Assembly: GCF_041381155.1 (NCBI RefSeq)
Contig: NC_091143.1
Location: forward strand, 26,129,695 to 26,193,694
Source of the DNA: Argopecten irradians
Taxonomy: Eukaryota; Mollusca; Bivalvia; Pectinida; Pectinidae
Direction: 5' to 3'
Length of the DNA stretch: 64,000 nt
Shown: piece by piece, positions 2,041 to 35,238 of the stretch
Numbering within the stretch: position 1 is the stretch's first letter
How the letters are laid out: the number at the start of each line of letters is the position of its first letter
Made by a program: the position numbers and the translations under genes
Notes under the pieces: model-generated
Databases searched by the model: none
Seen by the model: the letters and a program-made list of their open reading frames with translations, nothing else
Told to the model about the DNA's origin: nothing

Positions 2041-2136
2041 TCATGAAAATTTAAGAAATTCTGAAATTGGTGAAGTTGTCATATAGATGATGGAAATTTA
2101 AGAAAATCTGAAACTGGTGAAGTTGTCATATTAAGG
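2041..2136. repeat. Short tandem duplication, two units of about 48 bp
   Basis: Two adjacent similar units, each holding GAAATTTAAGAAA/TTTAAGAAA and GGTGAAGTTGTCATAT. The second unit lies at the left edge of the block duplicated at 19.34 kb. Confidence 0.65.
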
Positions 2137-4509: not shown

Positions 4510-5480
4510 GGTCTCTATGTTAAAGATGAATCTGGTCTATCTACAATATAACAACACAGCAACCATATCTAATTATCGCTTAATAATGTAACAACTGCAA
4601 TTATTTATATCTTCAACAATCCCAGCACGGAATATTAATAACGGTCTCAACGATCTTAAAACTATTTTATTGCAATTCCTATGAAGTATAGTTCTGGATC
4701 GCGTCGATCCACAGTGATAGCTCAATTTGACGAGCATCCGGCTAGTTATTTTGTCTTGTTTAAGCGTGTTTTTTAATCATTACCGAAGTAATTGGATGAA
4801 GATTTCCAGAGTGTCATTTAGGAGGTACGAACCATATCCTGTTTATCAGGACCGATCTGAAGTCTATTTTAACGTGAAAAATGTCCCCAAAAATCCTATG
4901 TTCGGAAAGTCGTGTTTTCAACACCCGAAAAATCAGAAAACGTAAAGAAATCAGACTTTTGACCATATTTAAAGTACAATATCGGCTATTTTTGCAATAC
5001 TTGAAATATGAAATCGAGTATATAGTAAGACAATCTTTAGTTTAGTACAAATAAGTTGACACTATACAGTTATTTCAGCTAATTCAAGAAAGAGTTTAGT
5101 TAGCATTACCATTTTTGCTATTTTTTGATGCAAACATTTATAAAATCTTACCCTGAACAATATCAGTTTATTTAATTTTTCTTTGATATGAATGCATGAC
5201 CGATAATACATAAGCCAGAACAAAAAATCGATATCAACCTGTCAAGTTGACTGATCTTGCAATTTGAAGTGTTTTTATATCTAGATTTCCGACAAAACAC
5301 ACATTTTGGTAGCTAATATTTCGGAAAATAGTAAAGCAAATACTTCCAAAGTTGTTTTATCCTTTTTTGTATATTTTGTTCTTGTTATTTTGATCATTTG
5401 TTATAAAAATGGTATAAATATGCACATGTTACTAGTGGGGCGACAACTGAAGGTGTATCGCTGATCAAATGAAGAGACTT
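4510..5480. other. Upstream flank of copy 1; right edge of duplicated block near 4865
   Basis: Sequence to about 4865 matches the flank of copy 2 (to about 22435), for example around GGAGGTACGAACCAT at 4820. Beyond that the two loci diverge. No gene is seen in the remaining AT-rich sequence. Confidence 0.6.
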
Positions 5481-5487
5481 GCGAAAG

Positions 5488-5620
5488 GGAAATAGCTCTT
5501 AGAGCTATTTCATTATGTTAGGAAATCATTTCACAGATTGAAGTAAATTGAAGTAGATCTGATAAAAGACAAGAGGCCTATGGGCCTTAACGGTCATCTG
5601 AGTTCGGATAAAGAATGAAA
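5488..5620. repeat. Hairpin plus interspersed-repeat segment
   Basis: GAAATAGCTC, a 3-base spacer and GAGCTATTTC form a perfect small hairpin near 5489-5511. It is followed by CCTATGGGCCTTAACGGTC (around 5578), which I associate with a common bivalve interspersed repeat. That association comes from memory, not from a search. Confidence 0.4.
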
Positions 5621-5854
5621 CAAAGACATATAAACACAATTCAAATGCTCATCAGGCTCTTGAAATCAGTAAATGTTTAAAGAGTTTTTGATTCCTTTAC
5701 ATCTGTAGCATTTACTAGGAAAACTGAGCAAAATAATACTCATACATGTGTTTTCCCTATATAAACTAAAGTAAATTTGACCCCCTCCCCAGGGAAAAAT
5801 CTGAGATCCCAGGGTCACTAATATATGAAGAGTATTTGGTTCCAACATATCTTT

Positions 5855-6260
5855 GAATCCAGAAGATGATTTTTCACGGCTTCGGTGCTCGCAAATTCAT
5901 CAAAGTACATCGTAAAACTCATTTTAGCCATTCTAAATCGTAAAATTTTTCCAAGGGGGAGACCGCCGGACCCCCCAAACACCAAAGTTTGGCGCCTTCA
6001 GCGCTCGCAAATTCAACAAAATGTATCGTAAAACTCTTCTCTGCCACTCTAAATCGTATATTTTTTCCCCGGGGAGACCCCCGGATCCCTCAAACACCAA
6101 AATCTCGCGCCTTCGGCGCTCAAAAAATCATCAAAATACATTGTAAAGCTCACCTCAGTCATTCTAAATTCTAATATTTTTCCAGGGGATACCTCGGACC
6201 CCCCATACTCGCATGCTAATTTGCGTATTCATTAATTTCCTGTTAGCGACGCCACTGTGT
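5855..6260. repeat. Tandem array of about 120-bp units (three imperfect copies)
   Basis: Each unit carries CATCGTAAAACTCAT, an AGCCATTCTAAATCGTA stretch, GGGGAGACC.CCGGACCCC, CACCAAA and GCGCCTTC.GCGCTC. The array ends at GCGACGCCACTG (around 6245), matching the end of the element at 57.7-58.8 kb. It looks like a truncated copy of the same non-autonomous element. A short frame crosses the array but is an artefact of the repeat. Confidence 0.7.
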
Positions 6261-6390
6261 GTACGAGGATTATATGTAATACGTATATCAAGTATCTCCT
6301 GTGGGGGGGTTACAAAATATTGAGGATCGTTGCCGATGATGGACGACGGACAAAAGGCGATTAGACTTGCTATACCTTGCATAGTAAATA

Positions 6391-6606
6391 CTTATAAGGC
6401 CAAAAATAGGGTTGGTAGGTCGGTTTCTTTTCTTCATTTCTTTCTTTCTTTTTTTGTTTCTTTCACTCTAAGAAATGGCCGGAACCAAAGTCTGAAATCG
6501 AAATTACGACTTTTAATTTTTCTGTAGGAAAGTGGAAAAAAATAGGGTCGAAGGTAAAACATCAGGGTCGGTCGAGTTACCCTAAACAGGCATTTTTTGG
6601 CCTAAT
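6391..6606. mobile_element. Small inverted-repeat element (MITE)
   Basis: The left end TAAGGCCAAAAATAGGGTT mirrors the right end CAGGCATTTTTTGGCCTAAT as terminal inverted repeats. The interior has no coding capacity. The target-site duplication is probably TA or TTA; the edges are uncertain. Confidence 0.55.
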
Positions 6607-7586
6607 ACATAGAAGAAAATCATGACCGAGGTAATATCAGGTGTTTAGGCATCTAGGTTCTGGATAAAAAGTTTAAAAAGGCTTAAAGATTTTAGCCTAT
6701 TTGAATTCTGTGTCCTTGAATGAAGGTCAGGGTCATTTATTTGAACAAACTTAAAGCCCTTCATCCTTGATCCTAGCATATCATATACATATAGTTATCA
6801 GATGACATCATCAGTATATATGGACAGTATCTATGATGTAATAAATACTCAATGACATCACTAATATTAGCATTAATCCTACTGATACTGTTGTTCTGCC
6901 AAATATAAACTGATTCTGATATATTAATAATGACATGATATCAAGTGGAAGTATCAAACATATGACATCACAAGTTTTGAATTCTTACCCTGGAAATATG
7001 CATTTTCATGCATAACATTTAAAAGTCTCCGTTACCAACATTTCATCAAAAGGAATCTGTTGTATAAATAAGAAATTGATAATAATAGATAATTTGGTCT
7101 GACCGGACACTCAATCTCTTAAAAATACATAAGTTGTTCAAAGAACAAGAAAAATCAAATAGTGTTTTACATAAAAATCACAAAACAACTTAATTGCTAT
7201 AAGTTTATATGTATATCAGGCAATTGATTAATTAATCAAGTTGAAATAACAAAAAAATTATGCTATATAGATTGTATGACAGCAGACACCCAATAAGTTA
7301 TTATCGCATGAGTAAGTTTTTCGAATAAAACAAGAAATTGAAGTTCACTTGAAATATTGAACATTTACCTTGCATACTTACCATGAAAGTGAGCAATTAA
7401 GCCAACTACCTCCTCTTATCCATTTCACATCCTTCCAAAATTTGTTTTCTATCTCTTGTTAGAATTGTGTTTACAGTACTGGTCTTTGATGTCTTGTGTA
7501 ATGTTACAGCATTGTAAGTCTATTTTTATTTAGTTCAGTAAAACTGCAGTAAAACATTAAAATGGCGTTATGATGAAATCATGTCA
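6607..7586. other. No gene recognised
   Basis: AT-rich non-coding sequence. No supported exon, RNA gene or well-bounded repeat. Confidence 0.5.
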
Positions 7587-7590
7587 TTAA

Positions 7591-8475
7591 GGTAGGTCCA
7601 TACTTTTAAAAACCGCGCCAATTTATATGACGCTAAACCGGTAGCTGTCGAGGTTGTTTTAATTCCAGAATGGTTTCCGATACGTTACGACCAAGGACGT
7701 ATATGAATCTTATAAATCCTTGGTTACGACATTCCACTTGGATATTTTTTCAATAGGTGAAAATTGTCAACATAAAATCATTAGATACATCAAATAAAAG
7801 CAACGAAGTAAATATATGATGCTATCTCTGAGGTTTTTGCGTCTCTGTCGTAAATGGGAATGGATTTTCAAACACTGGAAGTAAGTTCAGTCGCAATAAA
7901 TAATAAGAGGGGACCCGTCCCGACTGAAATTCCGGAATTCTAAAAAAACCCGACTACTTTTTGGAGAAAATCATAAAAATAAAGAAACATAAAACAGATA
8001 TGATATGACAAAAACATATGAACTGATGTAGAATGCTTTTTTGTGGCATGAGTTTAAAAAAAAGAGAGAAATATGACCCATCTTAGCCCTGGATGAAATC
8101 GGGGTAGGGTTGTGAGTAACAAACTTTAAGCTTATACAATTGTGAAAATTTAATCGAGGACTCAATTTTTTTTATATGATATTTGAAAACTATATTACCT
8201 TAGGCATATCATATACAAATGTTGTGAAATTGACATAGGTTTTCATTTCCTTTTTTGCCTATTCATTGATTTTTTTAGTGGCAAAAATATGGCAAAACAT
8301 GATAATTACGTATAGAAACGGTCCTCGAAAATAAATTTCAAGCTCAAATATCTCGAAAAGTAATTTGAGAACACCCATTTTTCTATACAGATTTGAAATT
8401 TGCAGGAAAAATGCAAGAAAATAAGACCAGTTGAAAAAAAATGACACGGGGTTTTTCCATAAGTATGGAGCTACC
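7591..8475. mobile_element. Non-autonomous TTAA-flanked DNA transposon, 885 bp
   Basis: TTAA (7587-7590) is followed by GGTAGGTCCATACTT. The right end AAGTATGGAGCTACC is followed by TTAA (8476-8479). Inverted ends plus a TTAA target duplication are the hallmark of piggyBac- or Kolobok-type elements. No transposase is recognisable inside; the minus-strand frames look random. The superfamily is inferred from the target site alone. Confidence 0.7.
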
Positions 8476-8479
8476 TTAA

Positions 8480-11225
8480 TATCAAACTTACAGTATTCAA
8501 AGAGTTGCATCTGCAATGTATGTTTGTATAGCGGTGATCTACTTGTGGCTTTATATATAGAGAGAGATATCAATGTAAATAATTTACATTTCAACATTTG
8601 GTCTTAGGCTATAGCTATACATGGCTTACTATGTAAGTTTGTACAATAATTCTATGAAATGCTAGTTCAGGTTCTAGAATCAGAAACATATAACATTTTT
8701 GATATCTTATATTGATGATTTTTTTTTCAAAGTACCTATTGTTCATTTTTTTATAAATGAAAAAGATTTAAAAAATATGTTTATTGAAGAAATTCTCTCA
8801 AAGAAAAGGAAATCAAATTCTTCAGTAGCCGTGTTTATTCTTTATAGACATTTCACATAATGGAAGTGGTGTTTTTTTTAGTGCATATCCAACATAATTA
8901 TGTTCTTAAATGTTGATCATATACATTGTCAAACAAGATCTGCCAGATTTTTTTCAGGTTTGTCTTCTTTAGTAGTCACTTATATTTAGTGTACGGCTAT
9001 CCGTCGCATGGACGTGTCTCTTTGCATTTGATCTACTATACTAGAAGGTAGCATTTTAATCATACAATGATATGATAATTAAGCAACATATTAGGAGAAA
9101 CATATTCATACGGCATCTGTCTCAGAGTCAGTACAATAGACTGTCAGTTGTTACGAGTTGGTTTTAGTCCATGCAGTATAACCTACTGTAGCCTAACGCT
9201 AGATTCAGTCGCTGTCATGATCAGACTTGGTTCTGCAGTAGGCAGAGTACGAAAAACAATCATAATAAACAACAGCAACCTCAAATATCAGATAGCGAAT
9301 TATATCAACATCCGCCGATAGTGATAGGCCTAGCTTAAACAAGTAAAATACATAACTAGGCCAACATACCTGATATTGCCGATTGTAACTTGAAAAGCGA
9401 GGCGGCTTTCAACATCAATCTGAACCGGTTCAAACCGGATACACAAGTGACACAACGTTACCATGCACATTCCTTCTACTAGGTATATAGTCGTATAGCA
9501 ATCCTTTGTGCGGTTGAACGCCCCAAACAGCACCCATTTCCACAACACACGCAATCCCAAACAAGTATTTGGATATCATTGCAAGACTTATAAAACGTTT
9601 TTTTTTATAAATTCAAGTAGTTATATAATAAAATAAACAGTATTTTCATAAATACGACTAATTTATGGATGGTCCACTCTTCGATCCAATCGGTCAGAAT
9701 AGCTTTGAATGAAGGCGGCCCACAAGTCCTGATATTTCGTCTGCCATGTAAATTTACTGGGAACCTGCGAAATACCTACAATTTCCAAGACCGTCTTGTG
9801 GTCGTTCTTCATAATATTTTCAAAGACCAAAGATACCGTTTTGCTCAGAATTATTAAAATTTTTATTGTGTGGAATCTCAGTTTGTCAACTTTTAGCGTT
9901 TGTTCGCTAGGTCGAATTAAACAATGAAAATGTTGATTTTTGCATGTTTAACCAAAAAATTCTCCCTCGAATGACTTTTCGTAATTATGAAAATCATGTC
10001 AAATGATAGATCACGCCAAGATTTATCAGCATACAAAATTTCAACAAATTCGTACCTACCGTTTCCTTAGGTTAAATTAGCCGTGTAAACATTTCGTTCA
10101 AGAATGATTACTCCGTTTTCGCTCTTTCTCTTCATTTAATATTTATCCCTATCACAAAAATTTGGCTGAATATCAAAATGTGTCTACGTCCATAAATTAT
10201 AAATTGAAATTGAACTTTTCTTTTATTCCGTTATCTTATTGAAAATTATGTAATTCCCATCAAGCTCCATGGTGGAAAATGAAAAACTGACCTATTCAAA
10301 TATTTGATCAAAAAGGAACTTCAATCTCACTTTATAAAGAACGCTCCATTATGGTGGTAATACCCCCGAAGGATTTTGCAATCTGATTAGTCACAGAATA
10401 GATATTCACATTTATGATATTTCAACGTAGGGACTAAGCCAATTTGAAAAATTTAGTCAATTGGCACTAAATGAGGATTTGATCGACCTCACGTCTTTTA
10501 TATTTGAGGATATCTTGATACAGTTGTCTCTTTTAGGTGGGAATAGCATACATAGAAAATTAATTAATAACTATCTAAACACTTGAGACGGTAATAACTG
10601 AATAATTCTTGAATAAAAAGAGACATATTATTCAATTTGGACTTCAAAACAGCCTTGAAAACGGCCAGTATACCAACTTTGATCAACCATGTTATCTCAG
10701 CTTGTGAAAGTAAAATGCTTTACTTTCAAAGCCTTTTATTTACAAATTTCATTTCAAAAGATTCCATCCAAATGAGTATCAATTGTATTGTTGATATCAA
10801 TTTCTTATCTTAGCAATCAAACAAGGACATAATTATGCAATGTGCATGTTGTCATACTTTTCCCTGTGTTGATTTCAACTAATGTTTTAGGTAATCTGTG
10901 CTGTCCTTAAAATGTTCTTGCCATACAGTAATTTTATCTCATTATCTCATGATAACCATTTAAGTTTACATTTGGCTTCAAAGTTTAAATTGGATTTCAA
11001 ATTCAAGCAAATATCCATATTTTTCTAATTTTTAAAGGATCAAGAAAAACACTTTCCAAATTTTTATTTGTGGCGACTTTTTTTCTTGTATAAAACAAAG
11101 TCAGATCTGTATGAAAACAATAATGTTGCAATTATTTTGGGGTAACACCCTATCTTTACTGGACTATACAAGGAAATCTCTCCAAAGAGGATTCTGCATC
11201 CACATAGTTTTAACCCTGGCTGCGC
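8480..11225. other. Long gene-less stretch
   Basis: No exon, RNA gene or mobile element with supportable ends. The open frames here, including the longest near 9330-9560 on the minus strand, have no recognisable motif or splice context. Confidence 0.45.
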
Positions 11226-11229
11226 CCTT

Positions 11230-12200
11230 GGAAGATATGTTTCATATTATTAGTATCTGATTACCCTAATTTTGAAGATTGTTTTGCTAAAGAAGATGCT
11301 TTGAATTTTAATTCTGTCGAATATGCATCTTTAATTTATGTGAACTTCGATTAGGTTGGTCGGTATGTGTGGTATAGTTGACCTGGTTTGGTTGACATTT
11401 CAGCGACATGATGGTTGGATGATATCGACTCAACTGTATCACTATACAAAACTTGTTTAGTGCATGCATCCAACACTAATAATGGTGTCAAGATTACAAG
11501 TGTATGATTTGGTATCGGATTCAGTACAGAAATTCCCATTTACTATAAGACGATCTCGTACCAGTCTGACATTTCCCCTTGCTCGGGTTGTTGATTCATC
11601 TCCAGATAAAGTGCTCGACTTGTATGTTTAATTTCTGTAAGAAATCGTTCATTTATATAGTATGGTGTGCCACTGAGGTGAGACTGTTGGCCCAGGCTCC
11701 GGATGAAAAGTGAACCTTGTTATGATAGGCCAAGACTTAACATGCATGTGCTTACTAAACACAATGACAGTTAAATGGAGCTATTTTGACATTGTCTATG
11801 AACTTATCTAGTTTTTCATGAAGGAAACACGAACCTAAGTTTAGCATCGGTGTTCTCGATGGGGTCTTCGTGCAGGTCACTTATACAAGATTGTCTTTTT
11901 AAGTTAAGTTGCATTTGTTTATATTAAGTTCCTGAAGGATCCTCTCTGCTGAAAATTAAACTTTTTCTATGGTTAGTTTTTTTTCTAAAATAAAATTTTG
12001 GAAGTTAATACACCAAAGTTGTAAAATGGAATAAACATAATGTGGTGGTAAGCCTGATTTTGAGCTATCTGTTTGACGCAAATTATGATTTTACAGGGAC
12101 TTCACTGTTTTGACATTACAAACGAAAAACTATTCAAAGCCATATTTGGTTGTCTGATAAGCGTGAATATTTACATAATTGACAAAACCAGTGCTGCTTT
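11230..12200. repeat. Block duplicated at 22.45-23.65 kb
   Basis: Sequence from GTATCTGATTACC onward (11250) through GTTGGTCGGTATGTGTGG (11353) and beyond 11900 matches 22470-23640 with scattered substitutions and small indels. It contains a frame that is open for about 95 codons in the other copy but interrupted here. No family is recognised, so it may be non-coding. Confidence 0.65.
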
Positions 12201-12332
12201 AAGAAAAAGATAATAATAATCCATCAAACCATTTTTTGCTCAGAATAGCAATATATGGTACCCCTATCCCCTAAATTAGGAAGATGAAAAATAACATTTC
12301 CTTAAGCATGATTAAACATTATCGAGTATAAC

Positions 12333-12930
12333 TTATAATATTATGTTTAATATTAACTCATCTACAACTGGCCAAGTTGATTTGTGGCTTTTCTCACTTA
12401 GGTCTCGGACGAAATTGGAGCCTTCCTTAGTGAAGTCTTTGTGGGCCACACGATCTCGTACAAGACTACGATCTTTCGCCAAAAACTCTAGCTCGTTGTG
12501 CAGTAAGAGTCTCATTTAAGAAGATACGAGGATTGTCAGTATTATGGTGCAAGATTTCAGCTGGAATAGCACGTCATAGACTTGGGCTCTAGTCCTATAC
12601 GAGTTGAATCTAATAATGATGTCTCTAGGACGATAGAAGGATGACCGGAAGCTATCGACACGGTGGGACCATGAGATGTCATGGTAGGAGAGAGAGATGC
12701 TCAATATATCTTTGAATAATGTTATAAGTATATCATCTGTATTTTCATCTCTTTGTTCCGGATTGCCTGCAACGTTAAGACAAGTGCGCCTACTGTATTG
12801 GTTCAAGTCGTCAATAAGACGGTTAGTAGAGATAGCTGTCCAAGGATCGGTTTTATTCCTTCCTTCACAGTATTTGGAATATCTAGTTAGCGCGGATGCC
12901 TTTTGCAGAATAAGGAATTGTTAAGCAGTT
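12333..12930 (-). pseudogene. LINE ORF1-like (L1 transposase_22-type) remnant
   Basis: The minus-strand frame 12806-12516 has the order typical of L1-like ORF1 proteins: a CLNVAGNPEQRDENTDD segment, then SHRVDSF, then RPRDIIIRFNSYRTRAQVY. The following frame (12515-12333) carries LAKDRSLVRDRVAHKDFT and STWPVVDELI, resembling the C-terminal basic part. The break between the frames near 12515 indicates decay. ORF1 proteins bind element RNA; no reverse transcriptase is adjacent. A domesticated host gene with such a domain is a less likely alternative. Confidence 0.6.
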
Positions 12931-13017
12931 TCTATGAGTTTATACATAATTTCACTATTGTTAATAGAAGATACCGTGTCAATGATTTCACTAACCTGCT
13001 CATCATCCTAGCGTTGC
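12840..13017. repeat. Block duplicated at 19.14-19.335 kb
   Basis: CAAGGATCGG to CATCATCCTAGCGTTGCCG matches 19143-19338 with small insertions. The match stops abruptly at GTTGCCG, after which the distal copy continues with sequence homologous to 2110 onward. Confidence 0.7.
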
Positions 13018-13117
13018 CGTTTAGCTTGTTGATTTCCATACTTGTCCCGACGAGAATGACTTGAGATTGCTTTAACATGTTGACAGAATTTAACAGAATT
13101 AGACACAGACAAATATA

Positions 13118-15211
13118 CACGGTGACGCAAGGTGAGTCCAAGGTTAGTCCAAGGTGAGACACAAGCCAAGAGTGAGTGGTTCTCACAGCAAAAGTTATTT
13201 TAATATTTCAAGATTTTAATTGTTTCACTCAGACACATTGAAATGTGTTACATGATGACACAATAACATACACAATATATAGACATATACATGACGAGAT
13301 GGGTACACAATCTACATGTACAAGATAAAGAAAGTTATAATTGTATAGTGTTTAATTTAAAGTAATATCATTACCTTTATTCGAAAAATAACAAATTTGT
13401 TTATAAGTTGGATACTGCAAATGTTCAATAGACGCTCTTATTTTTTAAGTAGGACATTTGGTGTAGTACTGAGCAATTTCTTTTCCTTACAGCTTTAATT
13501 ACCCTGATTTCACATCTGAAAAAAAAATGAAATTAATTTCCGATATTAACATGATATAAATTATATGATCTATTCTCTTTTGGGATACCAATCCATCACC
13601 CAGTTTCAATAGGGAACTTTATATTAGAAGTACGGAATTTGGTAACATTAATTCTGTTTTGTTCCGATAACTTTGTTTAATAACTTCCGAAAATAAATTC
13701 TTTTTTAAATTTTGAATAAAACCGACCTTTGGACAAGGATTCTTTGTCTTCGACCCAATATTGTATAAAAGCTTCACGTAGACGATGTGCAACTTCGTGC
13801 ATATAAAAGTTTGCATTCATAGGTAATTCACTGTCAAATATTTATATGACCACTGTGCAGTACCTATATGTTGCTACTTAGCCCAAGGTATGATATTTTC
13901 CAGTACTTACATTGGCAGGTAGGCTCTGGCGTACTAATACAACAATCAGAGTTCAAAAGGTCAAGAAATGACTGGGTTTTACGTCAGTATGATAATTCAC
14001 TGAAGAACATAACTTATTCTGAAAATTGATCAATATCTATTATTATGAAAATATTTGAAATGGATTGAAATGTCTAGCATATCTATCAACACCCAATGTA
14101 TGTTACACACCAATGCATTTCAAAAATATGACAACCAATGCTTAAATATATATAATGTGAATCCAGTATCATTAAAGATATGTTTAACATAAACTAACCA
14201 TTTAAACCGTATTTGTCCATTGCGACTAAACTCGCAATTAGTCTATAAAAGATATTGCTTAATTTATTTTCATTTGACAAAAAAAAGTTGTTCCACAAAT
14301 TTCACATTCCCAGCTTAACCTTTATCTAACGGATATCTTCCCAATTCACCATAGATCATATACCCAGGCGTACTAGCCCTAACATTAAGAATTCTTTTGC
14401 AAAAGGAGGAGTGTCAATTTTGGGCCCTCTGCTGGCCATTACCGATAAGCATTATTTTTTGTTTACAGATACCCAGGAGTTATGACATCATGATATGACA
14501 TGTATATAAAGTCAGGTCGGAGTCCCTTGTGAGTTATGGGGGGTTAAACAGAAGGGGCAATTTTCTGTTTTATCCAGTTTTGTTTTAACGAAATGATATT
14601 TTTGAATGATTTTTTTATGAATTATAATCCATTTACTTTAATAAAACATTTTGGAAAGTATAATATAGTGTCAAAAATAGGTCACAGTGACCTAATTTTG
14701 TTAAATGTCAATTATTCAAGAATATGATACATCTCATATTTTTGTCTTTATCACCATTGTCACAGCCATGTAGTAGATTTTTTATGTTAAAATGCGAGTG
14801 GGGAATATTAGAGTTATTTACTTTGGTTCTGAGTGATGATCTTTGCTCATTAAATAATGTTTTTAATCACCAAGACCACAAGAACAAATTGGAGAATCTT
14901 TCAAATGATGGCGAAATGAGTCAGAATTTAGATTGCTGGAGGAATTTCTGAGCTGGCACAGAGTAATATTCATGATTCGAAAACCTTTGCTTATAAAGGT
15001 ATTTGTTATATTAGGTTCCATTTTATTAATGTTAAAAATGAGTGTTTTAAATTTTGCAACAGTCTTAACATTCGATAAGTCAATGTTTAAAGCGAAAGAA
15101 ATTAATTCCCTAAAGGTACTGTTTTTCTAAACCATCGATGATGTGAAAACCATTCACTCCTGGCTTGTGTCTCACCTTGGACTCACCTTGGATTCACCTT
15201 GTTTCACCGTG
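13118..15211. mobile_element. Non-autonomous DNA transposon with about 75-bp terminal inverted repeats, 2.09 kb
   Basis: The left end CACGGTGACGCAAGGTGAGT, with repeated CCAAGGT blocks and a GAGTGGTT edge (13118-13180), is the inverted counterpart of the right end (about 15142-15211, ending CTTGTTTCACCGTG). TA lies outside both ends (13116-13117 and 15212-15213), consistent with a TA target duplication. The interior is AT-rich with only short frames and no transposase motif. Confidence 0.6.
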
Positions 15212-16749: not shown

Positions 16750-16831
16750 CAATCTGATTAAAATACAGATCCCCATTATACACTACGTTATAACGTAGTG
16801 TATAATGGGGATCTGTATTTTAATCAGATTG
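16750..16831. mobile_element. Perfect 82-bp palindromic element with 9-bp target duplication
   Basis: The sequence begins CAATCTGATTAAAATACAG and its second half is the exact reverse complement of the first, centred between 16790 and 16791 (ACGTTATAACGT). GAATAAGTA flanks it on both sides (16741-16749 and 16832-16840). An exact 9-bp target duplication shows it moved as a unit, as in Mutator-type foldback MITEs. It has no coding capacity. Confidence 0.85.
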
Positions 16832-17929: not shown

Positions 17930-18325
17930 ATACAACATGATAAACAATATTCAAAACAAGCACTAGTAGTGACTGACAATACTTTACTTACATGAATGAA
18001 ATATGAAAGGAGTCGAACAGACAACACATATTAAAAATGATATTCCCGCAGCATTCCAGAACATTGTTACGGAGTAACAGCTTCACCATCAGAACAGTAA
18101 AGATGTGGAACAGTTTACCAGAAGATGTTGTTTCAGCACCAAACATTAACTGCTTCAAAAATAGACTTGATACTAATTGGAAAAACGAAGACGTAATTTT
18201 CAACTACAGGGCTACCATAACCGGAAAATGAACAGTATATGTTAAAACATGACATTTTCGAGTCCGGTGAAGAGGAACAATAGTTCCTGTACTGGAAATT
18301 ATCTATATCTATCTATATCTACATG
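17930..18325 (+). mobile_element. CR1/L2-like LINE, 3' end only, with TATC microsatellite tail
   Basis: The plus-strand frame to 18231 ends with FTIRTVKMWNSLPEDVVSA and FKNRLDTNWK, the conserved C-terminal tail of many LINE polymerases. A short 3' UTR follows and ends in ATCTATATC repeats (about 18300-18322), a typical LINE tail. The reverse transcriptase core is absent, so this is a strongly 5'-truncated insertion. Confidence 0.7.
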
Positions 18326-19003: not shown

Positions 19004-19138
19004 ATGACGTCATGTGTTAGCGAGCGTAACGTCATACGTTTCGGAGAAAACGACGTGAATTGCGCTCACAAAAAAATGACGTAACAATCGATACCTACCC
19101 GCAAGGGAGCTAACTCTGTAATATACAAAGACGGAATA
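19004..19138. mobile_element. GGGTAGGTATCGAT-type MITE, partial copy
   Basis: It carries TGACGTCATGTG, ACGACGTGAATTGCGC, then ATCGATACCTACCCGCAAGG and an ACGGAATA end. This matches copies at 25.5, 25.7, 31.7 and 49.1 kb. The left terminal repeat is missing. Confidence 0.6.
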
Positions 19139-19344
19139 GTTGTTCAAGGATCGGCTTTGTTGCTTCGTTCATAGTATTTGGGATATGTACATGTGTATGT
19201 AGCTTAGCATGGATGCTTTTACAGAATAGGGAATTGTTGAGCAGTTTGTCTATCAGTATATCAATAATTTCACTATTGTCAATGGAAGATACCGAGTCAA
19301 CGATTTCAGTATCCTGCTCATCATCCTAGCGTTGCCGCTGGTGA

Positions 19345-19990
19345 AGTTATCTAAAGATAAAACTCATCGAGTGTATATTTTTAGAAACTTTTCAGCAAAT
19401 ACTACAAGAATTTTTACACCTACACATTTTTGTATTCGCATACTACAAATTAACCGTAGCACAGGCCCTTGGGCCTTTTGAATTTTTAAAAAGTATCTTC
19501 AAAGTTATCTGTCAAAATACTACAAAATGCACCTGGGTTTTTTTAATTTGGGCAAAGTTCAATGGTAACTGTAACAGGTCCTTTCTAGTTTCCAGGAAAA
19601 AATGTACACACTGGAATGAAAGCAGTTCTTATATTTACTGAAATCTTGCTGACTATATAAAACGTTCTTAATGTATATTTAAATCACCTTTTATAAAGAC
19701 CTTATACCTTTCTTGTAGTATACATTATACAGAGATTCCAAAATACCAATGTGTTTGAGAAAAAAAAATATCCATAGGCTGCAGGCATGTATACTAAACA
19801 CTAATATGGATATTTCCCATTGGGTGATTGTAATTGTAGACTAACATTTCTAGGACTATCAATTATCACTGTAAATTCTAATGTCTTGTACACCAAGACA
19901 ACATTTATATGATTAATAATCACACTCTAATGTTGCATCTGAAACGGAAAAGGTCTATAATCGATAAACAAAAAATGAACAAAACATGAT
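19345..19990. other. Flank of copy 2, no gene
   Basis: Partly matches 2115-2400 (for example CAGCAAATACTACAA) with an insertion of non-matching AT-rich sequence that includes GGCCCTTGGGCC near 19467. No exon was found. Confidence 0.45.
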
Positions 19991-20309
19991 ATGATATCCC
20001 CTTATCCAGTGCTCCGACAGGCTGCATACATCAATGTCCAGAAGATACAATGTGTGCTGTCCATGATTCCCTCACAGTTCCAGCATAATTTGTAACTTAA
20101 TCATTTTTATTTCTCTGTTCATTCCAGAATACTTCTTGGGAGCTATTCTTGCAGGAATATCTGACATTCAGCTGGGTGGAAGCAGTTTTGAAGCGTTTCT
20201 CGAAGTAGCGGAGAAACGTACTTTAACTCAATTATCTTCTAAGAAGTATCTCATTGCACTTTCAGAACATATCATCGTGCCTGTCATGGTATTCATATAA
20301 TCATATCAC

Positions 20310-22126
20310 TTATTCTTTGACAACAAAATCAGAAAGATACAACGGTACATCAAAGAGAGAAGTATTTATTCCTAAGTCATCACATATGTGAAGAAGTGCC
20401 GTTTTCGCGTCTTGCAAGCTCTCCTTCACAACTGAAACATTGCACACGGATTTTATCGTCGTCACACTTTCGTTGTTGTCAATGGACTTTGAGCCGTAGA
20501 ATCTAATTCCTTTCGATTTGATAAGTTCTTCAATTTTGTTTCCAAATTCGGCACCGCATAGTAGATGTTTGTGGACAGGCCAGTGACACGTGATGCCTAT
20601 TACATGTCCCTGTGGTTGGAGCTCCGGGACAGGTGGTCGGATCCCTACAGAAATAACTATAACATACCAAGCAAGATCGAATCCATAGCATGAGTACACA
20701 TAATCTCGTACATAATGACCACCCATCCTCCCATTTATTTCCAGCAATTTTGGTCCTTTTGATGTCATCTTCATTTCTACGTTAAAAACGCCATTGCGGA
20801 GACCAACGTCGATACAACAGTCAGACGCAGCTCTCTGAAGTTGGTTGATCTTGTATGAAGGCAGGCATGACGGCATGGACATGGATGTTTCTAAGAAAGA
20901 TCCTGGCCTGGTGGGACCATTATCTGAAACAACTGCGGCGATGACCTCCCCTTGATAGAGGATGACTTCGATATCGTGTTCAGTACCATCAAAATACTCC
21001 ATTATCATCATTGGCTCTCCGGTTGTGAAACTACTTGTGCGCTTCATGATCAAACTCAAACATTCTTTTTCATTCCGAACCAGCTTTACTCCATCTGCAT
21101 GAGCTCCATGTTCTGGCTTACAGACTGCAGGGAGCCCGACAAAACCTATAGCATATCTCAGTGTTTCTTCGCACGTGACTCTGGCAGACCTTCCGGTGTA
21201 TCCGAATGTACGAGGATAGTAGGGAACACCAGCAGTTTCTTGTCGAAGGAAACTGTGGATCAAATTTTTGCCTCTAGCAATGATAGCCCCTTTTACTCCA
21301 ACGCCTCCTGCCAGTTGAAGTTTGTCGCAGATATATGCAGTCAGTGGTGCACATTCATCTTTAAACGTACAACATCCATCAATATTCAGACGAAGATCTG
21401 TCAAAATCTGAACTATTTCCCTTGCGTATATGTGATCAAGCTGGGGGTTGGTAAAATCGTACTGAATGTATTTGTATACATTAACAGGTGGAGAGATTTC
21501 AGTTGAAACAAGAATAACCTGGGGACAAAAACAAGATACATTACTGAAATTCTCATGTTAATTATAAATAAATAAAGATTTTGGTTTAATCAATAGTATT
21601 CAGAAAAATGAGCATTTCAATCGGATAAATCATTTGAACTTGCAATAAGGGCCTCTTTCTAAGCCAGTATATGCCAGTATACAACATATATGACCGTAGT
21701 TCATTGATTTCCCCAATAACTCCACACTGAGTCTAAATGTTATTGAAATATGTTTAAACAGAAATCCACTGGAAGTTGAAAAGAGCGATCATTTTACTAA
21801 ATTAAATATATTAACCGCTTTACTCTTCTTTTAATTATCTTAATCATTGTGTTTCATCAGCATTTCACAGTAAAAGTTATAAGCAAAGCTTAACTGTTGA
21901 TAATATAGAAATTTTGATCAACTTAGTTATTATTTAAGGTAACTTGCGCCCATCTAAAACCTCGACTAAAAGCAGATATACATCGAATTACTTTAACTCC
22001 ATAACTTGTAATGGAAGATCGAATACAATCTTTGGTGAGCTGATCGGCACCGATGATTAATATGGTTTTGTTTTCTAACATCTTCTTCTCCTTTTCCGTT
22101 AAACTGTGTCTCCCGATTTCTTCCAT
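20310..22126 (-). CDS. Carnosine-synthase-like ATP-grasp ligase, copy 2 (intact)
   Basis: Two exons on the minus strand: 22126-21992 (45 codons) and 21518-20310 (402 codons plus stop), joined by donor AAA|GTAATT and acceptor CCCCAG|GTTATT in phase 0, giving 447 residues. Across the junction the protein reads ...SITSYGVK|VILVSTEISPP..., a continuous pre-ATP-grasp strand, which supports the splice. Family motifs are KTILIIGADQLT near residues 20-31, the ATP-binding lysine in AVCKPEHG (about 179), MIMEYFDG (about 215), the acidic NVEMK (E about 293) and the E-x-N of LLEINGRMGG (about 305-307). Carnosine synthase couples ATP hydrolysis to beta-alanyl-histidine formation in the cytosol. Vertebrate CARNS1 is roughly twice as long, so this is a compact form with only the catalytic half. 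The exact substrate is unknown; another amino-acid or dipeptide ligase is possible. There is no downstream partner gene; copy 1 lies 17.6 kb away on the same strand. Confidence 0.8.
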
Positions 22127-22569
22127 GGTCTCTATGTTAGAGATGAATCTGGTCTATCTACAATATAACAACACAGCAGCCATATCTAATTATCGCTTAA
22201 TAATGTAACAACTGCAATTCATTATATTTTCAACAATCCTAGCAAGGGATATTAAAAAGGTCACAATGATCTTTAAACTATTTTATTGTAAGTCCCATGA
22301 AGTAGTGTTCTAGATCATGTCGATCCCCAGCAATTGGACGAGTAGTCGGCTAGTCATTTTGTCTTATTTCAAGCGTTAAGATTTCAAGAATATCATATAG
22401 GAGGTACGAACCATGTCCTGTTTGTAAGGAACGATCTGAAGATGTGTTTCACATTGTTGTACGATGAGTTAAATCAAATCATGAGTATCTGATTACCTTA
22501 ATTTTGAAAATCGTTTTGGTAAAGAAGATGTTTTGAATTTCAATTCTGCCAAATATGCAACTTTGATTT

Positions 22570-22860
22570 TTGTTAACTTCGATTAGGTTGGTCAGTATGT
22601 GTGGTATAGCTGACCTGGTTTGGTTGACATTTCAGCGACATGATGGTTGGATGATGTCGACTCAACTGTATCACTATACAAAGCGTCTAAAACTAATAAT
22701 GGTGTCAATATTACCAGTGTATGATTTGGTATCAGATTCAGTACAGAGATTCCCATTTACTATAAGACAATCTCGTACCAGACTGATATCTGCCCTTGAT
22801 TGGGCATTTGATTCATCTCCGGATAAAGTACTCGACGTTTATGTTCAGTTTTTGTAGGAA
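22570..22860 (+). other. Open frame in duplicated block, function unrecognised
   Basis: A 95-codon plus-strand frame (MLTSIRLVSMCGIADLV start, ending SPDKVLDVYVQFL). An AG acceptor-like GATTAG precedes GTTGGTCAG. The paralogous sequence at 11351-11640 keeps the wording but is interrupted. It could be a decaying exon, or chance. Confidence 0.25.
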
Positions 22861-22875
22861 ATTGTTCGTTTATTT

Positions 22876-23032
22876 AAGGAATAGATTTTTATTTTGTTGA
22901 GGTTATGAGGGTATCATGATAATGGAGCACGTGTAAATTATGAAACACAGGCAAAGCCAGGTTACATAAAATTTACCCGGGCTCCATTATCATTATAACC
23001 TCATAACCTCAACAAAATAAAATCCATTCCTT
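22876..23032. mobile_element. Foldback MITE with about 50-bp arms
   Basis: The left arm AAGGAATAGATTTTTATTTT followed by GTTGAGGTTATGAGG is mirrored by CCTCATAACCTCAAC ... ATTCCTT on the right, and both arms extend inward through TCATGATAATGGAGC / GCTCCATTATCAT. It is absent from the paralogous block near 11.65 kb, so it inserted after the duplication, or was lost there. No clear target duplication. Confidence 0.65.
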
Positions 23033-23225
23033 ATATTAACTGTTTTTCACGTAAATGAAAATTATTTATTCTCGCAACAGTTGCATATATTTTAATAAAC
23101 GAATTCGATTGAACAGCTGATTGGAATCGAGTCATTTATATGTTCCCACCAAAAGTCGGGTCATGACCCAACGTTGCTACGCCAGCGACTATTCCCGTAA
23201 CAATAGAATCGCCGCGCGTGTTGTA

Positions 23226-23256
23226 CTATCATTATGCACTGATAATGATAGTAAGC
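23226..23256. repeat. Short perfect hairpin
   Basis: TACTATCATTAT, a 6-base loop, then ATAATGATAGTA. No terminator-like role is implied in a eukaryotic genome; noted as an isolated stem-loop in a locally GC-richer patch (GCCGCGCG at about 23211). Confidence 0.6.
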
Positions 23257-23660
23257 ATGGTTATTGAGTCAGTCTCAGTGCAAATTGTAAATATATAGTA
23301 AGTGTGTCACTCAGGCGAGAGTGCAGGTCCTCCCATGATGAAAATCGAACTTTGCGATGAAAGGTCAAGGCCTACCATGCATGTGCTTACTAACACGATG
23401 AGAGTCAAGCAGATATTTGGATATTGTCTATGACCTTTTTATTCATGAAAGAAACGCGAAGTTTAGCTTCGGTGTTCTCGATGGGCTCTTCATACAGGTC
23501 ACCGAATACAAGACTTTCTTCTACTTTAGTAACATTTTGTAGAGTTTTTGTTTATATTAAGTTCTCTTCCCTGATAAGTAGTCAAAATTGTCATATTGTC
23601 CTTTCTGATAAGCGAGAATAGTTACATTATTGACAAAACCAGTGTTACTTTAAGAAAATA

Positions 23661-25468
23661 ATATTAACACACGTTTCAAAAATAATAAGCTATTTTTCAA
23701 CATTTCTTACTAAAATTACTTTAACTACACAAAAATGCAAAAATAAAATCCAATATGTTATAATTTCACTTAATAGTTAAGTTTAGACAACCTTTCAAGC
23801 TAAAAATAACATGAACGGCTTTTAGTATATTTTAATTAAAAGATGTAAACATAGAACTTCAAACGTTTTATGATTTATATGTATGTTTATTAATACATAA
23901 ACTAAATATGATAACTGTGTATTTAAAGTTGTATTTCTTGTAATTTTCACTGTAACGATTTGAACATGGACATGTAACTTGATGATTAAGCTCCCCAAAA
24001 CCATATGTGCTCCCCAAAACCATATGTCAGTCTATCAGAGAGCCGAAATATAGTGATAATATTTTCCTGGTTTTGAATAAAACGCCTTAAATCTCCGCCA
24101 TACTCCGAATCGTATCACGTGACTGACGTCCACACGTCCTGCACGTGGTGATCCAGGTAACTAGCGATATCGCACATGTGCTTGTTTACGTTTTCCTTCT
24201 GGGTAATATGAGCAAATCGTGCTGGTTTATGTCCACAGAGCGAGTATTTGAAACATCTAATTCATACAATGCCGTAATTCAATATTTTTGCGTATCAAAA
24301 ATTGTAATGTGCGAGCATTATTTTCTTTATAGATCCATTCTGCTGAGGTTGACCACGTGTTTTGTTTACGAAAAATTGTTGACATTTCTCTTGGTTTCAT
24401 AACTCTCGTGTTACTTAGAGATTGTCGCGACGATGTTCGGTAAAGTTCGGAATGATTCGGCATCTTTCGAGCCTATTTTTTACGTGTACACGTTGGAAAT
24501 GTTTTTTTTTTTTAATTTTTTTTTTTTTACTTTTATAATTAAAATACTTCCAGTGCTGCAGCTTTATAAAAAGGGTTAAAATTAGAAAGTTTCAACTTCG
24601 GACAGATGGAGAAAAATGTGTATAACACCTATACAGTTTTTACTATGACAAAAAGAGCGACAGTGATAGACCATACAACTTTAAAAGCTTGAGAGATGTT
24701 TTAATAAATGGGAACTTCGAAATGTCTGTGACTTTTCACAAAAACGAAAGCAATAATGGTTCTGTTAGTTTTAACCTTTTTAACAAACTGCGTCCATCCT
24801 TTGTAAGTCCTTGATGCATGCTAAAGGAATATTGCTATCAGGAGGCCGCAATATCGCTTCTCGGCACACTAGCGTCTGTAGTACATAAAGCATCTGTCAT
24901 GAGTTTCCCTACATATTTGAATTATAACACAAGTTTAGATTTTATCAATTTTAGCAAGCCGTTCGTGCTGATTTTACGTGTTTAATATTTTTTTTGAAAT
25001 ATTACTGGTAATCTACTGCCGAAAATTCTTCTTTTTTAGTATTGAAAGTAGCTTATAATGCTAAAAATCAAATTTGCTTTTTTTTTGTTTTTTTTTTTGT
25101 TCGCTGTCCATTTTGTATTGTTCATCTTTCGTTCAAAGATATTGTTTTGGTTTCGGTGTGAAATTCGTAGTAAAAAGAATGTCGTTTACTTTGCATAGAA
25201 AACTGTTCGATCTGTATATATAAGACGTGTCTAATAAATAATATTTATGAAAGACTGTATTGAATAGAAAAACACTGAAGCCATGTGAAAAATAAATGTA
25301 CGTGTGGATGCATACACATGTACATTTAATATTCTTGTAACCAGAGATTTGCACAATCTCTGATAACCATGGGTTAGGCTTCTGAACTTCAGAGAGGCAA
25401 CTAACGCCTGTGAACAATAGACCTCGACGACATGTATATAAGTGTACTACTGCGTATATGTCTGACTA
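23661..25468. other. Gene-less stretch; small 2 x 19-bp tandem at 23991-24028
   Basis: GCTCCCCAAAACCATATGT occurs twice in tandem. CACGTG E-boxes lie near 24117 and 24143. No gene, RNA or full mobile element is recognised. Confidence 0.45.
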
Positions 25469-26369: not shown

Positions 26370-28200
26370 GAAACACGATTTTTTTCTCAAAAAATGACCA
26401 CCAGTTTGATCATTTCTTAATAATTATTTTTTTCTTTATTTCGGACTCTCTGATTGCCCTATTCTTTTTTTGGCATTCCATAATGAAAAAAAGTCCGTGC
26501 AAGGCGCGGTAATCCGACGTTATCGTGACATCACAATAGAAACATTTACGTTGCGTATTGATTTAGCAAAAATAATCCCTTGGAAAATCAATAGAATCGT
26601 AAATGTAAATGTATTTCATTTTTTAAAGTAGCCTAGAAAATTAATTATAAGCATTGAAGTCACTATCTTTCCATTTCATCGGATTTGAAATAGACCTTGG
26701 AAAAATCAATTGAATTGTACATGTAAACGTATTTCATTTTCTAAGATATCCTAAAAAGATTAATTATAAGCATTGAAGTCACCATCTTTCAATTTCATCG
26801 GATTATGAAATAAAAATAAAAAATAAAAATGAAATTAAAAAATAGTGACTTCAATACATAAGTGTATTAGTGTATAAAAAGTCTGCAAACAGTAGACGTC
26901 TAATGTTTTGTCTCATTTCCTATATGGCAGCTTGCTACAAATACTTACTTTTAGTAGTTTCAATATGCTCTGGATATTTCAACTTGGAGTTTTCTGTCCG
27001 AGTCACTGCCTCCATTTGAATACAACACCTATCCGGCTATATATCCTAGATGATAATACATGTATCACAAGTCATCGACCTATCATGGCCCTAAATGACC
27101 TTAATTGTCCATGGGCCGTGAAACTCAAACAAACAAGCATCGATCTACCTGTGAATTGCAACGATGAGTGATTAATAGGCTTAGTCTTATTTGAAACCCT
27201 CACAATTTAAGGCCCACTATTTTCATAAAACGGCTTTTGATTTTTTATTTTTAATGTAAAACTAGATTAATAATTGAAAGAGTCCTAAAATTTACTAGCT
27301 TACCATTAATACTACACTTTTTATCACTATTCATTGCCAGTTTGGTCATTTCTTAATAATCAATTTTCTTTGTTTCGGCCTTTCTGATTGGTCTATTCAT
27401 TTTTTACATACCACGATGAAAAAAAAAATATGGGCATTGCATGGAAATCCGACGTTATCTTGACGTCACAATAGAAACATTTACGTTGCGTATTGAATTG
27501 GCAAAAATAATCCCTTGGAAAAATCAATAGAATTGCTCGTGAAAACGTATTTCATTTTATACGATAGCCTAGAAAATTAATTATAAGCATTGAAAGCTTA
27601 TAAGCTACGCGAATTCACACAGTTTGCAAACAAAATTTTCTATCATACCCCGATGGAATTAAAAAAAAGTGACTTCAATACTAAGGTGTATTAGTGTATA
27701 AAAATTCTGCAAACAGTAGACGTCTAATGTTTTGTCACATTTCCTATATGGCAACTTACTACAAATACTTACTTTTAGTAGTTTCAATATGCCCTGGATA
27801 TTTCAACTTGGAGTTTACTGTCCGAGTCACTGCCTCCATATATGGATATAACACCTATCCGGCTATATAGCCTAGATGAGAATATTACAAGTCATCGACC
27901 TACCATGGCCCTAAATGACCATAGTTGTCCACATGGGCCGTGAAACTCAAACAAACAAACATTTACCTACCTGCGTACGTGATGGATCAACTGCAACGAT
28001 GAGTGAGTAATAGGCTCAGGCTTATTTGAAAACATCACAACTTAAGGTCAACTACCTTTCCGAAACGGTTTTTGTTTTTTATGTGAATGTAAAACGAGAT
28101 TAATAATTGATAGAGTCCTAAAATTTAATAGCTTACTTTTAATGCTACACTTTTCATCACCTTCTGAGCAATTTAATTTAAAAAAAATCAAATTTGGGTA
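26370..28200. repeat. Direct tandem duplication, two units of about 0.9-1 kb
   Basis: 26370-27250 and about 27335-28100 share order and wording: CATTTCTTAATAAT, ACATTTACGTTGCGTATTG, CAAAAATAATCCCTTGG, ATTAATTATAAGCATTGAA, GCAAACAGTAGACGTCTAATG, then a LINE-type 3' tail with CCCTAAATGACC and TGGGCCGTGAAACTCAAACA. The first unit also has an internal duplication (about 26560-26680 and 26690-26800). No gene. Confidence 0.75.
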
Positions 28201-31086: not shown

Positions 31087-31393
31087 CATCCTCCATATTC
31101 AAAGGGTTATTGTCACTGTCGTTATATACACCACTGGACCATATCTAAGCATAACTGGAGACAATATTTGTGACAATATTGACACGGGCAGTTTTGTCCT
31201 TTTTGGTGTACATCAAAAGAATAGAATAACGGTACAACGTATGACTTCGAAGTTGGGAGTCGCTCTCATGAATATCCAAGTCTCTGTAGACCTGTGGTTG
31301 GCCCAATTTTCCACTGACATGTCTTTAGTTGTACTATGTCTCGGTCCGGTGTGGATATTACTAGTGATAGTAAACCCTGGAATATTGGGGATG
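31087..31393. mobile_element. CATCCTCG-family MITE, older copy with 9-bp target duplication
   Basis: 307 bp from CATCCTCCATATTCAAAGGG to CCCTGGAATATTGGGGATG. Flanks GATAACAAT (31078-31086) and GATAGGAAT (31394-31402) match 7 of 9. The terminal repeats and the interior AACGGTACA..CTCTCATGAATATC.. follow the 34.5-kb copy. Divergence marks it as older than the 54-61 kb copies. Confidence 0.7.
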
Positions 31394-32435: not shown

Positions 32436-35238
32436 ATGTTTCGTTGGTTTGCGGTTGCCCTGATATTCGTCTTTGAACACTTACTCACTGCAAAAGGTAA
32501 GGAATTGTCCTATGACTATAGTGCCAGTGGTTTCGATTGCTACATTCTGTCAATGACTATAACTTAGCTTAACGATGATTCGTTTTGAATATTGAATGGT
32601 AATACACTGTCGTATGGATGTTCGAAGGGTGTTGGCTATATAGCAGGCTAAATTTTGAATTAGAACATCGTATGACACAATATCAAGAGGATCAAATTCA
32701 TAAGTTAATTTTCACTAAAATAAGAAAGAAAGAAAGAAAGAAAGAAAGAAACTGAAAAAAATGGGTTAAAATATCTAATGTTACAATGATTTTGAGCGTT
32801 GAAAGCGAGTTCATGCAACGATAATTTATTGGATAGTAAGGTGCTTTTGAAAGAACTTTCGCTAATGACACTATCAATGCGAACCAATGAAACGATGTAA
32901 AAAAAAGTCAAAACTGTATACCCAGTTTGTGTACTTTATTTGATAGCTTAAATTCAACACCAACACAAACATTTTCTTCAGGAATTATTTTTATTGTTTG
33001 TTGATTACTGGTGTGTAAACTGCATTTTTCAGTTTACACACCAGTAAACAACAAACAATAACAATCATTTCTTATATTTACATTTTGACCGACCATTTCA
33101 TTAAAAATTAAGTGTTCAAATAAAATAAAACTCTGTTTTTTTCAATGTTATACGATTGTTGGAACAGCTGGTCAATTGATGGAATCCCGGAACAGCTGGC
33201 TTCAATTTAGCCGGAAATGTTGTCAAATTCAGAGAGTACACAAAATATAGTTCCTCATTTACTTTATCTTTTTTCATCCCATTTTTACAATATTTATTAA
33301 GAATTCTATTTTTCTGATACATATTAAACATTTACATTCATACATGCAGTATATTGAAAATTTGTCATACAGATACAATAGTCCTAATCGGATGCGTATT
33401 CACTCTACTTGCGGAAGTCAGTGTTCCGGTGGGTGTATTTTAGCGCGGCAACCACTGCGTTTACGCAAGTGTAAACGATATCGCAGTTGGTAAGGTTATA
33501 TAGCAAAGAGAAAACGGAAATGTAAATATACTAAGATATTTGTTTGATACCAAAATTTTCAAGTGATGTGCAATAAAAGCGACACCAGTATGGTTACTAT
33601 TTTTATTTTCAGATGTTTCAATCAAACGCAGTGCATGGGTAACAAGTCCACAATATGAAAGTCAGGTAGAAACACCCGCCCTAGTAAACATCCAATCATC
33701 GTCAAAACTGGAATGCGCGTCAAAATGTATGGAGGCTAAGAGGTGTGACGTCATAGCTTACACAAAAGCCTCCAATCATTGTTTGGGGTACGCGTCTGTC
33801 CAGTCAACGTTGGAAACCGCCACTAGAACAGAGCTATATCTCCTGGATCCCTCTGGATCGACGACCCCTACAACACAGACATTTACAACTAACACCACCA
33901 CCTTCATGAAACGTGAGTATAGTAAAACTCTTTCATATATAGAAGTGGAATGATATATATTCTATCTGAGCACAGGCGCACATATTTTGTTTTCACACAG
34001 ACATTATAATAGATGTCTTGGTAATATTCTCTAAGACATGCTGTTAGATTACCTTTTAGGCGTCAAATGCCCGTGATCTGAGGCCATCCTCGATAATCCG
34101 TACAAAATATAGTAAAACATGTGTTCAACATTTTGCGATTCAGAAGAATATTCCCAATAAGTGTTCATTTCCTCTTCCAGGAGTTTGTGCTGGCAAAAAC
34201 TATACATATGTATCCCATTTGAACTGGTGTCTCCAGCTTGTGGTCAGTTCTTGGAGAGATCGGTCAGCTGCCCATGGCGTCTGTAAGGACATCGGGGGAC
34301 GATTGGCTTCTCTGGATACATTTGATAAATTCACTTATGTGAATGTCAATTACTCCAGCATCTACTTCAGTACGTATTGCATGTTTATCACCAATGTAGG
34401 ACAAAATTATATACAGTAATAAAAAAATCTAACACGTATTATCAAGATGTCATAATGATAAAGAGTACTACTGGGTTTCATCCTCGATACTCTAGGGGTT
34501 ACTATCACTGACGTTATACATACCCCTGGACTAATTCATAGTAAAACTGAAGGCGACCAGAACACACAGGTAATGTGGTCATTTGATGTACAAAAAAGAA
34601 TCAAATAACGGCACACTGTAGTTGACTATGTGAATTTGAAGTAGGGTGTCGCTCTCTCTGTAATCATCAAAGAAAGTCTTTGCAGGCCTGTGGTTGGTCA
34701 TTTGTTTTCTGCCTTCAATTTTACTTGAGATAGTCTATAGGTGGATACAACGTCAGTGATAATAACCCCTGGAGTATCGAGGATGCTATGAATTAAATTC
34801 ATTAGACGTTTATATGTTTTGGTAAGGCAAAACATGGATTAAGAAGTCATTTATGTTAACACTCTTACTAACTTCATCATGCGTCACCAGTTTGCGCTCG
34901 ATAATACCGCTTAACAAATAAATCCTTTTAGACGCATCCTTTCAACCATATACATGCAATACCAAACGACAAAATGTACTTGCCTCTTACTTCAGGAATA
35001 ATGCAGTTGTGATTATGTATTTCTTGTAGGCGACCGTCTGTGGGTCGGAGGACTGCTGACGAATGGGAGCTGGCAATTTCCCAATGGCGAGGTCCTGAAT
35101 CCGTATCAAAATCACTGGCATGAAGTTCTCGAGGATCACACAGGGGTCATAGGGTCATGTCTGACCTATCACAGTTCCGTGTTCTATAGCACTAACTGTT
35201 CCAGTATTTACCCTTTTCTCTGTGAGGAAGTGTGGTGA
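32436..35238 (+). CDS. Secreted C-type lectin with N-terminal PAN/apple-like domain
   Basis: Four exons: 32436-32496, 33613-33912, 34181-34369, 35030-35238, all with GT-AG borders and phase-1 introns, summing to 759 nt (252 residues plus stop). Residues 1-20 are a hydrophobic signal peptide (MFRWFAVALIFVFEHLL). About 40-100 form a small cysteine domain (C55, C59, C65, C77) resembling PAN/apple modules. 101-118 is a Thr-rich linker, likely O-glycosylated. 123-252 is a C-type lectin domain with WCLQLV, GGRLASLD, LWVGGL, SWQFPNG and YPFLCEE; C155-C248 and C227-C240 fit the canonical disulfides. No EPN/QPD or WND sugar-binding motif is visible, so calcium-dependent sugar binding may be lost or atypical. 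Such proteins act extracellularly in recognition, immunity or shell/mucus matrices; the ligand is unknown. A MITE sits in intron 3 and an AAAG microsatellite in intron 1. Confidence 0.88.
32721..32752. repeat. AAAG microsatellite
   Basis: About seven GAAA units in intron 1 of the lectin gene. Confidence 0.9.
32991..33061. repeat. Near-perfect hairpin, 32-bp arms
   Basis: TTATTGTTTGTTGATTACTG.. and its mirror ..CCAGTAAACAACAAACAATAA enclose a 7-base loop, with one mismatched pair. It lies in lectin intron 1 and resembles a foldback MITE without a clear target duplication. Confidence 0.75.
34479..34785. mobile_element. CATCCTCG-family MITE in lectin intron 3
   Basis: 307 bp with ends CATCCTCGATACTCTAGGGG and CCCCTGGAGTATCGAGGATG, plus the shared interior (GGTCGCC/GTGTCGCTCTCTCTGTAA). 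Subterminal ACTATCACTGACGTTATA marks a subfamily shared with 31.1 kb. The flanking 9-mers ACTGGGTTT and CTATGAATT do not match, so the target duplication has been lost, for example by recombination between copies. Confidence 0.75.

Follow-up and report, generated by a model that had tools for sequence, protein, structure and literature searches.

A single-age, rotated local duplication carrying an ATP-grasp gene in Argopecten irradians

Two copies of an ATP-grasp gene and its flanks

The window analyzed here is a stretch of 64,000 nucleotides (contig NC_091143.1, positions 26,129,695 to 26,193,694) from the 846-Mb genome of Argopecten irradians, and neither the window nor the 100 kb of fetched flanking sequence contains a single N. 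Two copies of an ATP-grasp gene, both on the minus strand, lie within it. Three blocks were delimited in copy 1: block A (2114 to 4862), which includes both recognized exons and the 3' flank of the gene; block B (11231 to 12216), its 5' flank; and block C (12832 to 13019), part of a LINE-like element. Self-BLAST of the window placed copy 2 at 19139 to 23667, with the blocks in the order C-A-B and all in direct orientation, reproducing the order and orientation that had originally been predicted for 19.14 to 23.66 kb. Within block A, positions 2399 to 4862 match 19982 to 22441 (90% identity, E = 0.0) and the left end, 2114 to 2186, matches 19338 to 19407 (84%; referred to as A-left). Block B is matched in three pieces (11242 to 11659 with 22474 to 22876, 85%, E = 4e-138; 11654 to 11931 with 23292 to 23564, 74%; and 12153 to 12216 with 23604 to 23667, 87.5%), while block C matches 19136 to 19337 (80%, E = 2e-46).

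In copy 2, block A (19338 to 22441) is contiguous with block B (22442 to 23667), the latter holding a repeat of ~430 bp (about 22871 to 23297) that matches many other places in the genome. Positions 2187 to 2398 of copy 1 are without a counterpart in copy 2, and 19408 to 19981, which includes a repeat-like stretch, has no aligned counterpart in block A of copy 1. An inverted match of 69% between 1689 to 1827 and 19447 to 19583 was taken to be a repeat. Across the 164 kb searched, none of the three blocks was found a third time. Elsewhere in the window, an open frame on the minus strand (52724 to 53317) matches the Mab-21 nucleotidyltransferase (E = 2.8e-8), which, like the introns and the LINE-like open frames, is in keeping with animal DNA. 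A search against Rfam returned no match for any part of the window.

Exon 2 of copy 1 (2704 to 3912, minus strand) carries the ATP-grasp domain in an open frame of 415 amino acids (ATPgrasp_Ter, E = 1.3e-9; ATP-grasp_4, E = 5.2e-8), and its counterpart in copy 2 (20310 to 21518, minus strand) is also open, with both Pfam families scoring above their curated cutoffs in both copies. The best relatives of solved structure are BacD and other amino acid ligases (E about 3e-8), and the predicted product may be carnosine-synthase-like in activity and substrate. Exon 1 is conserved, with 4 of the 9 paralogous loci searched matching at E ≤ 0.01, each upstream of exon 2. In copy 2, exon 1 (21944 to 22126, minus strand) spans 61 codons and borders on a GT donor, and both exons are open and have splice signals. 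In copy 1, exon 1 (4328 to 4509, minus strand) has one base fewer, resulting in a frameshift and a match split over two frames, and the donor is changed from GT to GA; both exons are thus intact in copy 2 only. An intact gene among the products had been predicted originally, and copy 2 answers to this; in copy 1, exon 1 is damaged, and the derived copy looks healthier than the original. Weak Pfam matches to exon 1 and to open reading frames in block B (E = 0.002 to 0.003) fell below the cutoffs. Between the two copies, exon 2 shows a dN of 0.032 and a dS of 0.085, with 375 of 403 residues identical. As five amino acid changes could be polarized to each copy (18 were unpolarized), exon 2 is without sign of faster decay in copy 1. 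At locus L011 (C4), a partial second ATP-grasp exon copy is present at 3241 to 3684, beside the C4 paralogue.

The A-B join and the repeats inserted in copy 1

In copy 1, blocks A and B are split by an inserted repeat (4865 to 11230), with other repeats nested at about 5431 to 10148; the insertion sits upstream of the copy 1 gene. When 4800 to 11300 was used as a query against the whole genome, all 18 loci that matched 4865 to 5431, among the matches listed, also matched ~10200 to 11170 nearby, indicating that both ends of the A-B gap belong to one repeat (the genome-wide searches score the best candidates, and every copy number given here is therefore a lower bound). At five of the six loci read, the outer parts of the repeat lie only ~20 to 170 bp apart and the middle is missing, which shows that 5431 to 10148 entered the repeat afterwards, as a nested insertion; at the sixth locus, the right part alone is matched. 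In the same five loci the repeat reaches further left than 4865, and the copy in the window is thus truncated at its left end. The class of this repeat was judged from its shape and is presumptive.

Across the A-B join, copy 2 reads GATCTGAAG-ATGTGTTTC without interruption, and in copy 1 the motif GAAG flanks the insertion on both sides. It is thus in copy 2 that the undivided site survives, and the adjacency of A and B is ancestral. A sharp junction had been predicted near 22440, which holds from the side of copy 1 only, as it is copy 1 that is interrupted by inserted repeats and copy 2 that runs straight through. Since A-B is unsplit in copy 2, the pieces joined number two and not three. This rules out a three-way rejoining and the description of three separated blocks brought together: A and B were neighbors before the duplication and were parted later, by a repeat, in copy 1 only. 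Nor are the large deletions and reordering once proposed needed for A-B. More generally, when a repeat enters the donor after the duplication, an ordinary adjacency in the copy can come to resemble a rearrangement, a trap for the reading of such loci.

Several further repeats occur in the window. A perfect palindrome of 82 bp (16750 to 16831) has GAATAAGTA(C) on both sides, resembling a foldback element with its target duplication. Near-identical palindromic units are present at 46119 to 46231 and 46376 to 46487, sharing 96 to 97% identity with each other in direct as well as inverted orientation. A family of ~320-bp elements has members at 31087 to 31393, 34478 to 34788, 54781 to 55098, 55813 to 56116, and 60974 to 61293, four of the five also having self-complementary ends of ~77 bp. 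A local duplication at 26401 to 28160 pairs 26695 to 27327 with 27513 to 28160 (82%) and 26401 to 26658 with 27337 to 27594 (84%), and contains a 118-bp tandem repeat at 26578 to 26812. A repeat at 18033 to 18325 is 97 to 100% identical to many other places and, given this identity, was probably active recently.

Ancestry of block C and age of the blocks

Block C belongs to an 837-bp fragment of a LINE-like element (12376 to 13212, minus strand; C1), covering an ORF1-like region, of which 12832 to 13019 is present in copy 2. The copied piece (19139 to 19337, minus strand; C2) abuts on its left the end of a small repeat (19005 to 19138), one that has relatives, and because this edge coincides with the end of a repeat, the original insertion border of C2 is no longer legible. 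The element is of low copy number and encodes its ORF1-like protein on the minus strand; Pfam put no name on this ORF1 (best E = 0.018), and we take the element to be LINE-like from its shape. In C1, the element sequence extends for a further 193 bp beyond the junction point, so that the truncation is on the side of C2.

At least eight further copies of the element are present elsewhere in the genome, and C therefore needed an ancestry test of its own. Within the shared block, the eight other copies are 96 to 100% alike; they share ~79 to 81% identity with C1 and 79 to 80% with C2, compared with 87% between C1 and C2. In a rooted tree with the eight other copies and five outgroups, C1 and C2 were sisters with a support of 99.9/98 (SH-aLRT/ultrafast bootstrap) from the full alignment and 100/84 from the shared block alone, the bootstrap being the weak point of the latter. 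Polarized sites numbered six for C1 with C2, three for C2 with the other copies, and zero for C1 with the other copies. A protein search around C, in which 125 of 436 candidates were scored, gave 75% over 67 amino acids for C2 and 57% for C1, and among the candidates scored nothing exceeded 54% outside C1, C2, and pieces of the eight copies. At the level of sequence comparison, C1 and C2 are thus shown to share ancestry.

That C2 might instead be an independent insertion, or a leftover, of the same mobile element, unrelated to a gene duplication in which A-B was duplicated plainly, is suggested by the existence of the other copies and by identity alone, which does not set C1 apart from the others with respect to C2 (C2 is closer to C1 than to the other copies at a nonsignificant p of 0.125, from approximate counts). 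This origin is improbable, since C1 groups with C2 in the rooted tree, they have diverged from each other as far as the copies of A and B have, the sequence in C2 is internal to the element, and a family of ~10 copies (those found) in 846 Mb would have had to strike exactly at the edge of block A in copy 2 by chance.

Noncoding differences between the copies amount to 100 of 750 bases (13.3%) in block A away from exon 2, 9 of 70 (12.9%) in A-left, 108 of 729 (14.8%) in B, and 25 of 184 (13.6%) in C, and do not differ significantly across the blocks (chi-square p = 0.85); the 750 bases of A include ~18 exon bases, the limits of exon 1 having been estimated (4346 to 4521, ~18 bp off). A shared age, which the original prediction had proposed to judge from the identity of each block, was therefore borne out, with the exception of 259 noncoding bases beside exon 2. 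These differ by only 3.5% (p = 2e-6 versus the rest), so that, barring conversion or constraint, block A is of mixed age. Identity is ~96% across 2524 to 4022 and its counterpart near 20132 to 21628, comprising exon 2 and noncoding bases, versus ~87% elsewhere. Gene conversion is a possible cause of the raised identity around the exon, but the copies differ at 14 of 173 fourfold sites of exon 2 (8.1%), which is intermediate between the 96.5%-identical flank of 259 bases and the 86.7%-identical remainder of 750. As C1 and C2 are sisters and the noncoding divergence agrees, one event can explain all blocks. An assembly artifact, or two haplotypes placed in tandem, would also yield two similar copies side by side, but is very improbable in view of the 13 to 15% noncoding divergence, the private insertions in each copy, and a window free of N.

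Proposed mechanism and known circle-mediated duplications

The only new junction seen is that between C and A (19337 to 19338), a blunt join with zero shared bases. C1 reads GTTGCCG|TTTAGC, A1 reads CTGAAA|CTGGTG, and the junction reads GTTGCCG|CTGGTG; the sharp junction predicted after GTTGCCG at about 19338 is real and lies at 19337. The equivalents of 13019 and 2114 are joined there, so that the donor ends are fused inside the derivative. The order is rotated with the orientation kept (A-B-C to C-A-B, all direct), as in circle-mediated duplication, whereas a plain tandem duplication requires the same block order in both copies. C lies to the right of B in copy 1 but to the left of A in copy 2, and no second C was found to the right of B in copy 2, either in the window or in the 40 kb that follow it, in agreement with the earlier view that this is not a simple tandem duplication. 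Copy 2 of B ends at the equivalent of 12216 and C2 starts at the equivalent of 12832; the ends of the derivative, which at the opening point of a circle would be neighbors in the donor, are thus 615 bp apart, and the intervening 12217 to 12831 is absent from both sides of copy 2. Duplication by a larger direct unit was rejected, as next to copy 2 neither the nonrepeat spacer nor 1 to 2113 is repeated in the same direction.

We consider it somewhat probable (roughly 0.55) that, in a single event, a unit A-B-C of ~4.5 kb was copied downstream as C|A-B via a circle or an equivalent template switch. The ancestral unit would correspond to 2114 to 13019 minus the later insertion; its ends at 2114 and 13019 would have been joined bluntly to form a circle; once opened where B meets C, this would have inserted downstream in linear form, in the order C|A-B and in direct orientation. 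Equivalently, a replicative template switch that copied part of C before passing on to A-B would give the same product. Afterwards, repeats would have gathered between and inside the copies, including the nest that splits A from B in copy 1. The circle, the single event, and the role of copy 1 as donor are what we infer, and a circular intermediate is the most economical mechanism, if not a proven one. The circular or template-switching event named in the original prediction stands as the shortest account, giving the order in one step, but the missing 615 bp count against it: a clean opening of the circle should have carried 12217 to 12831, and extra loss at the ends must therefore be assumed. 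The gap may represent such a later loss, and membership among circle-mediated duplications is thus not certain.

A tandem duplication could lead to a similar arrangement if it extended rightward past 13212, ~190 bp of C were templated into the junction, the spacer filled with repeats, and a deletion took away the duplicate C that would have stood to the right of B in copy 2. The copies are close and in direct orientation, the spacer from 13.2 to 19.1 kb is largely repeats, and templated inserts of hundreds of bases with blunt junctions are known from human complex insertions, in the part of the report available (PMC5120786). Only ~6 kb, much of it repeats, separates the copies, a distance compatible with a tandem origin. 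This course of events is possible but on the unlikely side, as it takes one step more than rotation, its separate deletion must remove exactly what rotation would leave behind, and to the right of B in copy 2 there is no trace of C, of 12217 to 12831, or of nonrepeat spacer.

More doubtful is a fuller scenario for the gene, in which, via an extrachromosomal circle, the rotated copy may have replaced its parent as the functional ATP-grasp gene, the donor having lost exon 1 and mobile elements having split the region upstream of it. If the circle is true, the locus would represent an old (about 13 to 15% noncoding divergence), small rotated duplication with a complete protein-coding gene, beyond the large human and cattle cases in the literature consulted, and such events could seed lasting gene copies.

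The locus is a real, single-age, rotated local duplication of a kind already known, the complete gene carried being the twist. The cattle color-sidedness translocations, reportedly far larger than the Argopecten case, are said to have taken place between chromosomes. They share with it a rotated order, produced through a circular intermediate, as relayed in the available parts of PMC7450558 and PMC7188851. In these same parts, rotated order in direct orientation is given as a signature of circle-mediated duplication (PMC7450558; PMC7188851), and human segmental duplications arising through circular DNA convert A-B/C-D to B-A/D-C (Chicote et al. 2020, PMC7450558). Like the human cases as described there, the Argopecten duplication has a rotated order, the same orientation, donor ends fused inside the derivative, a breakpoint in an interspersed repeat, and two copies only, and its blunt C|A junction fits their joins with 0 to 2 bp or a short indel (PMC7450558). 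Unlike them, its unit is ~4.5 kb rather than 22 to 3918 kb, its copies are ~6 kb rather than 0.09 to 58 Mb apart, and its opening point is not base-to-base, with 615 bp missing (PMC7450558). The complex insertions of PMC5120786 likewise show blunt joins, with copied inserts hundreds of bases long, but are de novo human disease rearrangements, and rotation of a single unit is not among the features described in the part of that report available. The cases in PMC7188851 have the copy order efghij-abcd in the same direction, as here; unlike the Argopecten locus, where a whole two-exon gene that looks intact was carried, none of them seemed to its authors, in the part of the paper available, to have yielded a further copy of a coding gene.
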